A DNA stretch of 64,000 nt from assembly GCA_022823665.1 (NCBI GenBank), contig JAJEHN010000024.1:1-64000 (forward strand). The letters run 5' to 3'. The notes under the pieces were generated by a model. The model had not been told where the DNA came from. It worked only from the letters and a program-made list of their open reading frames with translations, and searched no databases. The translations under genes were made by a program, and so were the position numbers. Source of the DNA: Thermoanaerobaculia bacterium. GTDB taxonomy: Bacteria; Acidobacteriota; Thermoanaerobaculia; Multivoradales; Multivoraceae. Numbering within the stretch: the first letter of the stretch is position 1; each line of letters opens with the position of its first letter. Shown here in pieces: positions 13,821 to 20,159 of this stretch.

Positions 13821-13868
13821 CTGCCGCGCCGCGCCGGAGTGTCGGCGTGGCGCGATGGCGCGTCGGTG

Positions 13869-14055
13869 GCACCCGCCTGCAGCGGGCCGAAGGAGGGGGT
13901 CCCTGCGGACGCTCACGCCCACTTGGTGAATGGGGGTCTGGCGCTCGCTTCGGTCGGCTGCGCTCCGGTTGGTTTCGGACGATGCGTGGACGTCGCCCGT
14001 CGCTTGCCTCCAGCCCGCAGGGACCCCTCCTTCGGCCCGTTGCAGGCTGGAGGTC
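13869..14055 (+). repeat. Dispersed palindromic-arm repeat, copy 1
   Basis: Arms 13875-13908 (gcctgcagcgggccgaaggagggggtccctgcgg) and 14015-14047 are near-perfect inverted repeats; the core acgctcacgcccacttggtgaatgggggt...gctcgcttcggtcggctgcgctccgg matches copies 2 and 3. Confidence 0.85.
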
Positions 14056-14259
14056 GTCTCGTTGTCGCGTCTCGCCGGGCAGGGGCTAGAATCGCCCAGC
14101 ACTACAGGGCCTGTGTCGGCCCTAAACGCGAACGCGGGTTTATCCCGTGTCTCTAAGAACACCTACACCATGCTTTCCCTCCTTGAGCAGTCCGAAGGCC
14201 GGGGCAGCCGCCCTGGGGTCATCCTGCACCCGAGGCGCTCCCACCTCTAGGCCGAAAGT

Positions 14260-15600
14260 GTGCGCGACTTAGTGAGTCTAGAGAGCGAGAAGGTGGTTCC
14301 ACGGGCGGCGACAACCCGACGGTACGTTAGTACCCTGGAAGCTCTTGCCCAAGGGGACGTGGCACCTAGCGCGCCTGAATGGCGTCGGCGATTGACAGCG
14401 TGCCTCGACGGTGAACCGGCAGAGGTCCTTCGCCGTCAGGAAGATCGCTCACTCCTGAGAGAACAAGGTGCTTACTTTACGAGCGCGAAGATGGCGAGAA
14501 GGCTCGCCACCAGAGTACCCGTCCGGTCAGACTTCCAAGGGCTCTACTTCGACCCGGCTTGTGGTGCAGGAGATCTGTTGATCGGAGTTGCGAAGCGGCT
14601 TCCGGTTGCTCCTACCCTCAAAGAGACCATTCTTGACTGGGGCAAGCGACTTGCAGGCTGGGACATCTCGCCCGAATTCGTGCGAATGGCGAAAGCGCGA
14701 CTGGTTCTCTTGGCCGCTAGCCGTTGCCGGGCCCGGCCGAACTCTCACGAGATCGTCCTAGACACGGTCTTCCCGAGAATTAGTGTTAGGGACTTTCTCG
14801 CACAGTCAAAGCCGTTGCAGCCGGACGATGTGGTAGTGATGAACCCTCCCTTCTCCTACATTGCCACGCCATACGACTGTAGCTGGTCTTCTGGCCAGGT
14901 CAACGCAGCGGCCGTTTTTACGGAGAAGGTGATGCGCCAGGCCCCTGTTGGCCTTCGGGTTATGGCGATTCTCCCCGAGGTCCTTCGCTCCGGCACACGG
15001 TACGATCGCTGGAGAAGCCTTTTGGCCTCTCTTGCCCAGATCCGAGGCCAACGGCCTCTCGGGAGATTTGACAAGTGGACGGATGTAGACGTCTATCTCC
15101 TAGACCTCGTCAGGGTATCTAACGAGGGAGAACAAGAGAGCAAGGAAGTGCTGCCGGCCGGAAGGTCCCCTGGTGGAGTTGGCCGGCGCTTCTCTGTTCA
15201 CGTGGGGCCAGTAGTGCCCCATCGCCACAAAGAGACCGGACCTGATGTTCGCTTCATTCACGCGCGGTCCGTGCCTGCCTGGGGGGAATGCGAAGGGGTT
15301 GTTGAGACCCGTAGGTTTAGCGGAAGGCTCTTTCTTCCTCCCTTTGTCGTGGTCAGGAGAACTTCGCGCCCAGGCGATGCGAAGCGTGCAGTGCCGACCC
15401 TTGTTCTAGGCCAGTCGCCGGTTGCAGTCGAGAATCACCTAATGGTGCTCGTTCCGAGGGATGCCAGCGTTGCGACGTGCAAAGAGCTCATCCGCCGACT
15501 GGCCTCGCACAGGACTGACTCTTGGCTTGACAACAGGATGCGGTGCAGACACCTCACAACTCGGATTCTCGCTGCCCTACCTTGGTGGAGCAATCCATGA
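14260..15600 (+). CDS. N6-adenine DNA methyltransferase (HsdM/Eco57I-like fold), no endonuclease domain recognised
   Basis: REQGAYFTSAKMARRLA; motif I YFDPACGAGDLL; motif IV VVMNPPFSY; GTG start; C-terminal region plausible for target recognition. Confidence 0.85.
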   Translation: MRDLVSLESEKVVPRAATTRRYVSTLEALAQGDVAPSAPEWRRRLTACLDGEPAEVLRRQEDRSLLREQGAYFTSAKMARRLATRVPVRSDFQGLYFDPACGAGDLLIGVAKRLPVAPTLKETILDWGKRLAGWDISPEFVRMAKARLVLLAASRCRARPNSHEIVLDTVFPRISVRDFLAQSKPLQPDDVVVMNPPFSYIATPYDCSWSSGQVNAAAVFTEKVMRQAPVGLRVMAILPEVLRSGTRYDRWRSLLASLAQIRGQRPLGRFDKWTDVDVYLLDLVRVSNEGEQESKEVLPAGRSPGGVGRRFSVHVGPVVPHRHKETGPDVRFIHARSVPAWGECEGVVETRRFSGRLFLPPFVVVRRTSRPGDAKRAVPTLVLGQSPVAVENHLMVLVPRDASVATCKELIRRLASHRTDSWLDNRMRCRHLTTRILAALPWWSNP

Positions 15601-17669
15601 ACGAAGCCCGGCTAAGATTCTCCACGGAGATCATTAGAAGGCTCGGCGAGGAACTGAATCCCAGTCTCGACAAGGGTGTCGTGGAGCTGGTCAAGAACGC
15701 CTACGACGCTGATGCCACTCAGTGCCGTGTGGAGCTTCTGAATACGGACAGGGCGGGCGGTACGGTCCTCGTCTCAGACAACGGCGACGGAATGACGGTC
15801 GGCGATATCGTGGGTGGGTGGCTGGTCTTGGGTCGTTCGAGGAAGAGTCAAAGGCGCAAGACCAAGTTAGGAAGAGTGCCGGCTGGCAGTAAAGGTCTCG
15901 GGCGGCTCGCCGCGCTGAGGATGGGGAAGAGAGCGCTGCTCACGACCCAACCTCGACAAGAGAAGGGGCCCGGGTACAGGTTAGAGATCGATTGGGAGCG
16001 CTTTGACGCGGCTGAAGTCGTGGAGGACGTGGAGTTGACAATCGAGTCGATGAGCCCGGGAGAGGCCGCGTATGGCACTGCGATCAGGATAGAAGATCTG
16101 AGACACGGGTTTGGGAGAATGGCAGTCAAACGCCTCGCCCGGGAGCTAATCCTCCTGGCCGACCCTTTTCAGGACGACCCTCAGGCATTCCGGCCGGAAC
16201 TTCGCGCTGCCGAGTTCCGGGACCTAGAGGAACTCGTGCGCGGCCGGTACTTCCGAGATGCTGAGTTCCTGCTAAGGGCTGAACTCGACCGGGCTGGTCG
16301 TGCCACCGCGCGTGTGACCGACTGGAGAGGGGAGGTGCTCTTCAGCGCGGAGCACGAGGAGCTGGCGAGAAAGAGGAAGGCGCAGGGCAGCTACGAGTGC
16401 CCGCGAGCAACTTTCGAGCTCTGGGCGTTTCTCTTGAACCGCAAGACGTTCTCCACCCGAGTGTCGAGTCTTGGGGAGGTCCGAAGCTGGCTCGGCGAGT
16501 TTGGGGGCGTTCATCTCTACTACAACGGTCTCCGGGTAAACCCGTACGGAAACGCTGGCAATGACTGGCTGGAGATGAATCTCCGTCGCGTTCGCAGTCC
16601 TGAGGAAAGGCCGAGCACGAATACCGCGATCGGGCGAGTCTGTGTGGAAGACGAGGGCGAGGCGCTCGAGCAGAAGACCGATCGTTCTGGCTTCATTGAG
16701 GACACTGAGTTTCGTGACCTACGCGCGTTTGCGCAGGATGCGCTGGACTGGATGGCTAGGCGCCGTCTGGAGGAAGCGGAGAGGCGTCGTCAGCAGGAGC
16801 GTGCGGAAGCTCCCGTGCGGAGTGGTGAGTCCGAGCTTGAGATGAAGCGTGTGATTCGAGGTTCTCCGCCCCGGATTCGAGGACGTCTCGGCAGCGCATT
16901 CGAGCGATACGAAGCGTCGCGCAACAAGGAAGTGGAATCTCTTCAGAAGGAGGTGCAGCTCTACCGGACGCTCAGTACGGCAGGCATCACTGCGGTCACG
17001 TTTGCGCACGAGTCGAGCGGTAACTCAGTAAAGGTGATCACTCAATCCATTGGGACGGTCGCACGGCGCGCTCGAAGTCGGATGGGTCCCGCATACAGTG
17101 AGACGCTGGGAGAGCCAGTTAGGAGAATACGCCGAGCAGTGAAAAACTTGGCCGTTCTTGGCGCGGCTACACTGCGTCTCGTGGCTCATGAGAAGCGACG
17201 CCTTTCTCGAATCGATCTCCATGAGTTGCTCGCCAAAGTCGTCAAGAACTACGAACCGTTCCTCGCGGCACGGGATGTCAAGCTCACGGTTGAGCTGGGG
17301 AGCGGTTCGCCGTATCTCCGTGGGAGTGAGGCTGCAATAGAATCGATCGTGACGAATCTCCTGACCAACAGCGTAGCGGCCTTTGAAGAGGATGCGACAC
17401 GAGGCAGGCGAATCAGGATGCGCACGGAGCTTTCCGAGGGGACATGGACGTTGACCGTTGAGGACAATGGGCCTGGCATCCGGGGGATTTCGACGCGCGA
17501 GATCTGGCTTCCGGGTCGGACTACTCGGCGTGACGGTACCGGACTAGGCCTGACGATCGTTCGCGACGCAGTACGCGATCTTGGGGGACGAGTGGACGCT
17601 TTGGAGAGCGGGGAGTCCGGCGGGGCGGTGCTGCTTGTAGAGCTCCCGGTGCTAGGAGTACACAAATGA
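15597..17669 (+). CDS. Dual GHKL ATPase: N-terminal MORC/Hsp90-like ATPase plus C-terminal histidine-kinase-like HATPase
   Basis: N-terminal ELVKNAYDADA, DNGDGM, AGSKGLGRLAALRMG, then GVHLYYNGLRVNPYGNAGNDWLEM; C-terminal TFAHESSGN (H-box-like), IVTNLLTNSVAAF (N box), VEDNGPGI (G1), DGTGLGLTIV (G2). ATGA overlap with the methylase. Confidence 0.87.
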   Translation: MNEARLRFSTEIIRRLGEELNPSLDKGVVELVKNAYDADATQCRVELLNTDRAGGTVLVSDNGDGMTVGDIVGGWLVLGRSRKSQRRKTKLGRVPAGSKGLGRLAALRMGKRALLTTQPRQEKGPGYRLEIDWERFDAAEVVEDVELTIESMSPGEAAYGTAIRIEDLRHGFGRMAVKRLARELILLADPFQDDPQAFRPELRAAEFRDLEELVRGRYFRDAEFLLRAELDRAGRATARVTDWRGEVLFSAEHEELARKRKAQGSYECPRATFELWAFLLNRKTFSTRVSSLGEVRSWLGEFGGVHLYYNGLRVNPYGNAGNDWLEMNLRRVRSPEERPSTNTAIGRVCVEDEGEALEQKTDRSGFIEDTEFRDLRAFAQDALDWMARRRLEEAERRRQQERAEAPVRSGESELEMKRVIRGSPPRIRGRLGSAFERYEASRNKEVESLQKEVQLYRTLSTAGITAVTFAHESSGNSVKVITQSIGTVARRARSRMGPAYSETLGEPVRRIRRAVKNLAVLGAATLRLVAHEKRRLSRIDLHELLAKVVKNYEPFLAARDVKLTVELGSGSPYLRGSEAAIESIVTNLLTNSVAAFEEDATRGRRIRMRTELSEGTWTLTVEDNGPGIRGISTREIWLPGRTTRRDGTGLGLTIVRDAVRDLGGRVDALESGESGGAVLLVELPVLGVHK

Positions 17670-18355
17670 CGAGGCTGATTGAGGGCCAGGAAGTTAAGCG
17701 AGTGCTGATAGTGGACGATCAGCCCGATGCCCGGGGAGCGTACGGGGAGCTGGTGGAGGATCTGGACCTCGTGCCGGTGAAGATCAGCGGTCCCGTTGAT
17801 GAGAACCGGATTCTCGCTCTCGGGACGGAAGCGGACGTCATCCTGTGCGACTACCACCTGAAGCGACAGGATTACGCGGAATCCGACGGTGATGTGCTCC
17901 TCGCGCGTTGTGTGGAGCGGGGAATGGCTGGAGTGTTGTGCACTGGCTACTCGGACTTCGGTTTGTCGATACGGCGCGACTGTCTAAGGTGGATTCCGTC
18001 GCGCGTGCGAAGCCGGGAGGTAGAACCGGAGGCGTTTCTTGACGGGTGGGCGCAGTGCCTGAGGGAGATCAGGGGTTCACTCCACCCTGCTCGTAGGCCG
18101 TGGCGGACACTGGTGCGCGTGGTGGAGACCGATCTCGAGAGGGGCTACGTCTCGGCCGTCGTGCCGGGGTGGAGTGTGAGAGAGCCGGTGAACGTCCAGA
18201 TCGAGGGGATTCCGAGCGAGTTCCAAGGTCGGCTGCTGCCTGATGCGAGGTTCTTCTGTCAGGTGAACATTGGCGCTGAGAGTGAGGATGAGCTCTTTTT
18301 CGACGGTTGGGAGGTTGGCGATGCCGACTTTGCGGAACAAGCTCTGCATAGTTGA
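17666..18355 (+). CDS. Receiver-domain protein with a C-terminal region of unknown function
   Basis: VLIVDDQPDARG, DVILCDYHLK (phosphoacceptor Asp), GVLCTGYSD; no HTH recognised; ATGA overlap with the ATPase gene. Confidence 0.83.
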   Translation: MTRLIEGQEVKRVLIVDDQPDARGAYGELVEDLDLVPVKISGPVDENRILALGTEADVILCDYHLKRQDYAESDGDVLLARCVERGMAGVLCTGYSDFGLSIRRDCLRWIPSRVRSREVEPEAFLDGWAQCLREIRGSLHPARRPWRTLVRVVETDLERGYVSAVVPGWSVREPVNVQIEGIPSEFQGRLLPDARFFCQVNIGAESEDELFFDGWEVGDADFAEQALHS

Positions 18356-19319
18356 TGTAGGACACGGAAACTGCGCAGTCGTGACCGATCGTAATGGTGA
18401 CGTCGTCGTGATCGATACTGGTCTCCGAAACGGTCTTCTCGAGTTTCTCAGCCGCCACGGCGTCGTTATGATCCGAGCGGTGTATCTGTCCCATGCAGAC
18501 GAAGACCACATCGGAGGCCTGATCAATGTACTGGCTTCTGGCATCGTGAAGATTGGGCGAGTCGTCCTCAATGGCGACGCATCCAAGGACACGAAGGTGT
18601 GGGATGATCTGTTGCTTGCGTTGCGGTGTGCGGAGAGAGACGGTGGCGTTGAGGAGTGGGCCGTGGGCCTGACGAGGGGCAAGCGGGAGGACTTGGCAGA
18701 TGTATCTGTGGCGGTCCTGGGCCCTAGCCAGTATCTGGCAGGGAAGGCTGTGGCTGGTCAAGACAGCAAGGGCCGAACGATTTCTAGCAATGCGATGAGT
18801 GCAGTTGTACGTGTCGACGCGGCCGGGCGGCCAGTGGCAGTGCTTGCGGGAGATATCGATGGCGTCGGGTTGGATGACCTGCTCGCGGATGGTGTTAAGG
18901 AGTGCCTGCGCGCCCCTATTCTGGTGTATCCCCATCATGGTGGACTGCCAGGTACGAGAGAAGTAGGGACCTTTGCGGAGAGGCTCTTGGGGGCTACTTC
19001 GCCGGCGCTTGTAGTTTTCTCGGTGGGGAGGGGACGCAAGGGCTACCCGCGACCCGAGACCGTGCGAGCGTTGCGCGAGCTCCTGCCAGAGGCACGGATC
19101 GTGTGTACTCAACTCTCGCAGGACTGTTCCGGTCGCTTGCCAACCGAGCCGCTTGTGCATTTGAGTCAGGCGTTCGCGCTTGGCAGTGTGGATCGCACCT
19201 GTTGTGGTGGTTCCCTCTTGGTCACACTAGATGGGGGAGGTACAGTGGAACCGGAGGCGGTGTCTCATACCGACTTTATTCGCTCCTTTGTGAGCACGCC
19301 GCTGTGCTTGCGGAGCTGA
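18321..19319 (+). CDS. ComEC/Rec2-like metallo-beta-lactamase-fold hydrolase (soluble)
   Basis: LCIVDVGHGNCAVVTDRNGDVVVIDTG; LSHADEDHIGG metal motif; VLAGDID; VYPHHGG; no TM segments; start at ATG 18321 inside the end of the receiver gene. Confidence 0.85.
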   Translation: MPTLRNKLCIVDVGHGNCAVVTDRNGDVVVIDTGLRNGLLEFLSRHGVVMIRAVYLSHADEDHIGGLINVLASGIVKIGRVVLNGDASKDTKVWDDLLLALRCAERDGGVEEWAVGLTRGKREDLADVSVAVLGPSQYLAGKAVAGQDSKGRTISSNAMSAVVRVDAAGRPVAVLAGDIDGVGLDDLLADGVKECLRAPILVYPHHGGLPGTREVGTFAERLLGATSPALVVFSVGRGRKGYPRPETVRALRELLPEARIVCTQLSQDCSGRLPTEPLVHLSQAFALGSVDRTCCGGSLLVTLDGGGTVEPEAVSHTDFIRSFVSTPLCLRS

Positions 19320-19435
19320 TTGTCAAGCAGCGTAGACGAGCGGCGTCCGAGCCCATTCGTGTCTAGGGGCACTGAACGGAGGCGAGACGGGATGAGGTAC
19401 ACGGCAGCCGGCAAGTGACTCCGTGAAGGCATACG

Positions 19436-19864
19436 GTGCTCGAACTGGCGCGGCTGTTCCCCGATGAGAAAGCAGCGCGGAAGTGGTTCGAGGTACTGTT
19501 TCTGGCCGATAGGCGAGGGGTTTCGTCCGCGCTGTGGCACCGACAACAGCCAGGAGCGGAGGCACGCGGAGATGCCGTATCGGTCGAGCTTCTGCCGGCG
19601 CTACTTCTCGGTTCAGGCGTGCCCCTGATGAGGGGTTCGCCGCTTTCCGCTGTTAACCTAGCTGTGGGGCCGAAGGGTCATCGACTTCGCCGGACTGTCA
19701 GCAACGAGCCGGAGTGGATCGTAACCGAGCGGAGGAGGGACCGTCGTCGGTTGAACCGCATCCTGCTGCACGGCGAACCGTCGCCTCACGACCCCAAGAG
19801 GCTTTGGTGCAACGCAGAGAAGCTAGGCAAACTCTGGTCGCGTAGGAGACGGCCCCTGAGCTGA
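19436..19864 (+). pseudogene. Decayed IS1595-like transposase (N-terminal zinc-ribbon region)
   Basis: LELARLFPDEKAARKWFE in frame, then a +1 shift to WPIGEGFRPRCGTDNSQERRHAEMPYRSSFCRRYFSVQACP* (19503-19628), then back to VPLMRGSPLSAVNLAVG; resembles IS1595 ...WFE.RWP.G..CPRCGS..VQE....MPYRC..CRKYFSVRTGTVM. Confidence 0.7.
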
Positions 19865-19903
19865 TCAGCGGACCTATTCATCGTCGTCGTGTGGCGACGC
19901 GGC

Positions 19904-20093
19904 AACCTCCAGCCTGCCGGGGTCCGGGGAGGGGGTCCCAGGGGGCTGGAGCCAAGCGACTTCCGTAGAGCTTTCCCCTGCCGACGCCCTTCCGGAGCGC
20001 CGGCGACCGAAGCGAGCGCAGGAACCTTCCTCCACAAAGAGAGCGCGAGCGTCCCCTGGGACCCCCTCCCCGGACCCCGGCAGGCGGGTGCGT
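19904..20093 (-). repeat. Dispersed palindromic-arm repeat, copy 2 (inverted relative to copy 1)
   Basis: Perfect 33-nt inverted repeat 19912-19944 / 20053-20085; reverse complement of the core (acgctcgcgct...gcgctcgcttcggtcgccggcgctccgg...gtcgcttggctccagc) matches copies 1 and 3. Confidence 0.88.
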
Positions 20094-20159
20094 CCGACAA
20101 ACGCCACCGGCGAGCTTCGCGCGGCGTAGCCGCGCTTCCGGCGCCTCCGGTGCCTCCGG

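Follow-up and report, generated by a model that had tools for sequence, protein, structure and literature searches.

GHKL ATPases of the paraMORC type occur in restriction-modification (R-M) loci (Iyer 2008, PMC2292703), and pairs made of a kinase and a receiver were found beside R-M genes, with the suggestion that they control the R-M systems (Bellieny-Rabelo 2021, PMC8011034). In these HEF_HK/Response_reg_2 systems the kinase combines HATPase_c_3, DHp and HATPase_c, has no recognised transmembrane sensor, stands beside a receiver whose Lys is reported as conserved, and is linked to nucleases and to methylases, mainly C5; an MBL effector is not mentioned for them (PMC8011034). Among the paraMORC ATPases and BbrUII/HgiDII, the GHKL ATPase goes with a fused nuclease or a helicase partner. 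As for MBL proteins, the MBL domain of ComEC is a Mn2+-dependent DNase, recognisable by specific substitutions, HxDxDH (an Asp replacing a His) and an Asn in motif III (PMC8579336); ComEC-type MBL nucleases have also been recruited as effectors by other defence systems, Hachiman, AVAST and Lamassu, where they are gated, indiscriminate DNases (PMC12799240).

We analysed a stretch of 64,000 nucleotides from a Thermoanaerobaculia bacterium (hereafter the window), in which an earlier note had pointed out a candidate undescribed four-gene defence module at 14260-19319. With Detocs this module would share the use of a two-component-like logic in defence. The effector of Detocs degrades ATP, and Detocs is not known to have a methylase or an MBL nuclease, which would set the module apart from it; besides, no match named after Detocs was seen among NCBIfam or PADLOC models (for the kinase, among its best 25 matches).

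Results

The ORF list of the window confirms the four genes, all on the + strand. They encode an N6-type DNA methylase (14260-15600, 446 aa) with DPACGAG and NPPF motifs and a C-terminal half that may be a specificity region; a dual-GHKL protein (15597-17669, 690 aa) made of an N-terminal paraMORC-like ATPase, a central region, a DHp helix with FAHES and a C-terminal histidine-kinase ATPase; a stand-alone receiver protein (17666-18355, 229 aa); and a ComEC-type MBL-fold hydrolase (18321-19319, 332 aa), predicted to be the DNA nuclease effector, in which a C-terminal extension containing Cys is conserved. The ATGA overlaps (15597, 17666) and the embedded ATG (18321) described in the earlier note are all found in the sequence, like the motifs it had listed (DPACGAGDLL/NPPF, the two ATPase domains, here HATPase_c_3 plus HATPase_c, CDYHL, HADEDH/PHHGG). 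The block is indeed poorer in G+C (0.59-0.61, whereas the kilobases next to it have 0.64-0.69 and other parts reach 0.74) and lies between housekeeping genes, rpsK-rpoA-rplQ on one side and an EF-G-like gene on the other. At the opposite, the decayed transposase proposed downstream (19436-19864) is unproven: this ORF looks by eye like an IS1595-type remnant, and matches neither any Pfam family nor the IS1595 zinc-ribbon model.

The module is contained in an insertion of about 6.06 kb downstream of rplQ (13835-19894). When the rplQ to EF-G-like interval of a genome of the same genus (G054, locus L097) is aligned, the match ends at 13834 and resumes at 19895; another genome of the genus (G012) is also empty there. 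The receiver was found in none of 13 other genomes sampled in the genus, and 396 genomes of the phylum gave no second full-length match. The closest module is that of Candidatus Multivorans thiocomprendens (kinase 91% identical, flanking rplQ DNA 92% identical), in the same rplQ interval, where its neighbours are an R-M pair of XcyI type and a gene, or gene fragment, for a BsuBI/PstI endonuclease (L015:3056-6349); the site downstream of rplQ thus looks like an R-M hotspot. Between both copies dN/dS is 0.169 for the methylase, 0.049 for the kinase, 0.145 for the receiver and 0.116 for the MBL, i.e. the genes are under purifying selection. Their dS (0.7-1.06) exceeds that of the adjoining rpoA (0.19), which suggests separate acquisitions. 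We also observe an element of about 190 bp whose arms are inverted and of which the genome has some 35 copies. Two diverged copies in opposite orientation (13862-14054 and 19900-20098) flank the insertion; copies of it are also found between rplQ and the EF-G-like gene in relatives.

Mobility is also apparent elsewhere. Three phage or prophage contigs of IMG/VR hold the complete four-gene module: two copies directly follow genes for a phage endolysin, an Rz-like spanin and a phage methylase, with a tail gene in addition in one case, and the third copy lies between an integrase and an excisionase, adjoining by eye a dusA-like gene. Burkholderia, Hymenobacter and Pseudanabaena carry it on plasmids; in the Pseudanabaena plasmid copy (L011:14827-16780) an IS982 transposase splits the MBL gene, and there is no adjacent methylase. 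PADLOC, run over 80 flanking proteins with no background set, gave a scatter of single defence matches, so that defence-gene neighbours of the module are to be read as case-by-case instances. Many other dual-GHKL kinases of this family are found on IMG/VR contigs (L144-L208), where their neighbours are Dcm, Vsr, HNH or an N6 methylase.

The pair formed by this dual-GHKL kinase and receiver recurs at about 30 loci, with kinase identities of 40-91%. These loci come from at least seven phyla (Acidobacteriota, Pseudomonadota, Planctomycetota, Chloroflexota, Actinomycetota, Bacteroidota and Cyanobacteriota); almost all of them have the ComEC-type MBL next in line, and most have the N6-methylase as well. 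All 32 loci having the module receiver have the kinase, and 31 the MBL (the exception is L032). An MBL-led search, independent of the kinase, gives the same picture: in 293 Nostocales genomes, kinase and receiver lie upstream of 9/9 strong MBL matches. The linkage of kinase, receiver and MBL, a check proposed in the earlier note, is therefore conserved in distant bacteria. Since the arrangement recurs in about 30 distant loci and its genes are under purifying selection, it is not due to chance.

The kinase belongs to a large family (at least 518 confirmed relatives) and shows the architecture of HEF_HK: an N-terminal HATPase_c_3 (aa 25-147, 6e-20), a conserved His-acidic DHp, a C-terminal HATPase_c (aa 578-685, 2e-21) and an adjacent receiver. 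Its residues 8-185 match the BbrUII/HgiDII restriction-enzyme profile at 1e-19, which is far below the cut-off of that model. No membrane sensor domain was recognised by the Pfam scan. The predicted phospho-acceptor His471 of FAHES (codon 17007-17009, + strand) is invariant in 84/84 members of the family, as are nearly all residues of the ATPase motifs. However, neither the kinase nor anything else in its genome matches PF19191 (HEF_HK) at E 0.1; kinases of sister clades (L053, L060, L075) match it weakly (6e-4 to 2e-3).

For the receiver, the claimed phospho-acceptor motif CDYHL is present but the Pfam Response_reg match is weak (E 0.025, below the cut-off), and no match to PF19192 (Response_reg_2) was seen at E 0.1. 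The fold is nevertheless backed by a confident AlphaFold model (pLDDT 91), whose fold matches in the PDB are receiver domains only; the C-terminal beta domain of about 90 residues found no match in this search. D17, D18 and D62, the latter being the predicted phospho-acceptor (codon 17849-17851, + strand), are invariant in 32/32 receivers. By contrast, none of the 32 has the switch Lys that classical receivers carry, expected before the conserved Pro111, so that the relay may have another way of working or be vestigial; this Lys is the one exception to the invariance of catalytic residues, which otherwise covers both ATPase domains, the phospho-acceptor His, the receiver Asp and the ComEC-type metal ligands. 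Neither an HTH nor any other DNA-binding output domain was seen in the model or the fold search, and we do not favour a receiver acting as transcriptional regulator.

The MBL protein is of the ComEC, i.e. DNA-nuclease, type both by profile, ComEC structures coming first at 2e-20, and by fold (model pLDDT 90, best PDB match the ComEC MBL domain 9ic4, E 8e-17). It has all the ComEC-specific metal ligands: HxDxDH, the motif III Asn, the motif IV Asp and the motif V His. H58, D60, D62, H63, N157, D178 and H206 are invariant in the alignment of 23 homologues; motif II HADEDH (H58, D60, D62, H63) lies at 18492-18509 and motif V PHHGG (H205/H206) at 18930-18944, both on the + strand. These data agree with the nuclease-type effector proposed before, the nuclease activity itself being predicted.

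The methylase matches Pfam N6_Mtase (5e-4), the PADLOC MTase_II model (1e-13) and the BseCI methylase profile (1.5e-5); these profiles place it among the N6-type enzymes, as a distant relative of BseCI. Most loci outside the cyanobacteria keep it, upstream of the kinase. Thirteen cyanobacterial loci, forming one clade of the kinase tree, have no linked methylase, and in eight of the methylase-less genomes the search for this family returned no close homologue, only weak matches to other methylases.

The clustering of neighbours, which covered 79 genome loci and 6 plasmid loci, shows that the effector is exchanged within the family. On the kinase tree, built by a quick method with SH-aLRT as sole support measure, every MBL locus falls in one clade (support 100), the MBL branch having an MBL in 30 of its 31 rows, and the effector type changes 9 times against a mean of 48.7 after shuffling. 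In the HNH branch kinase and receiver are kept, an HNH nuclease takes the MBL slot and the methylase is of the same family or Eco57I-like. Since the MBL thus occupies the position of a nuclease in sister systems, this provides independent support for its being a nuclease. Other branches combine long receivers with Dcm, some also with Vsr. One more branch (L075:10108-12046, L076, L078, L081, L083, L091) has two conserved downstream proteins with no significant Pfam match, the first displaying a receiver-like DD/D pattern, and an N6 methylase in some cases. Finally, four Nostocales genomes have a more distant MBL (motif II HxHxDH) placed immediately after an N6 methylase, with neither kinase nor receiver; in three of these pairs (L138:2994-6861, L139:3246-7030, L140:2972-6783) the methylase has about 920-940 aa and a MerR-like gene adjoins. 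They are possibly another kind of MBL-based R-M.

Discussion

No named system is matched among PADLOC and NCBIfam models, as the earlier note had expected. The PADLOC matches are weak and mixed (MTase_II, REase_II at the GHKL part, PDC-M48B at the MBL) and no one system fits; moreover we found no published description of the exact four-gene set in the open-access literature, subscription papers and preprints being mostly outside this scope. The module is nevertheless precedented, its kinase/receiver half belonging with the R-M-linked paraMORC-kinase family (PMC2292703, PMC8011034), so that “undescribed” could hold for the combination only: the kinase/receiver/R-M theme is already published and the module is not categorically new. 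With HEF_HK/Response_reg_2 it has in common the architecture of the kinase, the adjacent receiver, the lack of a recognised transmembrane sensor and the linkage to methylase and nuclease; it differs by an N6-type instead of a mainly C5 methylase, by the ComEC-type MBL effector, by the lost receiver Lys, and by kinase and receiver escaping PF19191 and PF19192. Judging from these protein signatures, the module is best read as an MBL-effector branch or variant of those R-M-linked paraMORC-kinase/receiver systems, missed by their models. It resembles paraMORC ATPases and BbrUII/HgiDII by its N-terminal GHKL ATPase with intact motifs and its R-M context, but has a C-terminal histidine kinase and a separate nuclease. 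Compared with a type II R-M system, the methylase is present, except in the cyanobacterial clade, the classical REase is absent and the MBL sits in the nuclease slot. As for Hachiman, AVAST and Lamassu, the ComEC-like effector is shared, but the conserved unit contains no protease partner, and we propose a control by the receiver instead of proteolysis.

We think it probable that these genes form a mobile R-M-like defence module, with one protein for sensing, another for cutting, and a His-Asp relay joining the two. The methylase would mark host DNA, while the dual-GHKL protein, through its paraMORC ATPase and central region, would engage unmarked or otherwise foreign DNA. This engagement would switch on the C-terminal kinase, which would autophosphorylate on His471 and transfer the phosphate to the receiver at Asp62; once phosphorylated, the receiver might, through its C-terminal beta domain, activate the MBL DNase, degrading the invader DNA or, as abortive infection, all DNA. 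The model is weakest on three points: in which direction the relay runs, what the lost Lys means, and how the methylase-less clade distinguishes self from non-self. On this last point, the methylase proposed to mark self is neither universal nor obligatory; because of the cyanobacterial clade, self-marking cannot be the general logic of the module. There, either a common host methylation would serve as mark, or the trigger would be other than methylation.

That clade needs no self mark at all if the relay works by inhibition or autoregulation: at rest, the kinase would maintain the receiver in its phosphorylated form and the nuclease switched off, and a loss of signalling (e.g. phage shut-off or loss of the module) would free a suicidal nuclease, leading to addiction or abortive infection and not to sequence-specific restriction. 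Carriage on temperate phages and plasmids fits such a behavior, and so does the gated, indiscriminate activity of ComEC-type MBL nucleases elsewhere in defence (PMC12799240). However, the methylase, conserved in most loci and occurring in HNH branches too, suggests DNA recognition, and we hold this explanation to be unlikely. The pair could also stand outside the sensing and cutting machine and simply serve an ordinary R-M system as its two-component regulator, acting on the methylase and nuclease genes, in line with the control suggested for two-component-like proteins beside R-M genes (PMC8011034). The missing DNA-binding output domain of the receiver, a kinase N-terminus of the DNA-machine paraMORC type with no membrane sensor recognised, and a conserved unit devoid of any other restriction nuclease make this very improbable.

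A role other than defence, in DNA repair or competence-related processing, with the genes travelling by chance on mobile elements, is suggested by the likeness of the MBL to the competence protein ComEC and of MORC-like ATPases to MutL (PMC2292703). Nevertheless the distribution is sporadic, down to 0/13 in the genus and no second full match in the phylum, and the module is prophage cargo, exchanges its nuclease effector and neighbours R-M genes, all of which leaves hardly any credit to such a role.

These genes might represent a class of restriction systems using recognition of foreign DNA by a MORC-type ATPase, a soluble His-Asp phosphorelay and interchangeable nucleases (MBL, HNH and others), with a methylase dispensable in cyanobacteria, where two-component signalling would act as trigger of a DNase throughout the class; we give this generalisation about an even chance. 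Should the relay gate the nuclease, it would mean that two-component signalling can run restriction, which was earlier only speculated (PMC8011034). The family is large, and the logic of kinase and receiver stays constant across branches that each have their own nuclease, so that the roles of His471 and Asp62 are testable by single mutants; likewise the methylase-less clade makes the sensing of methylation by such systems testable. A ComEC-type MBL working with no protease partner would, besides, add a second way to switch on such nucleases.
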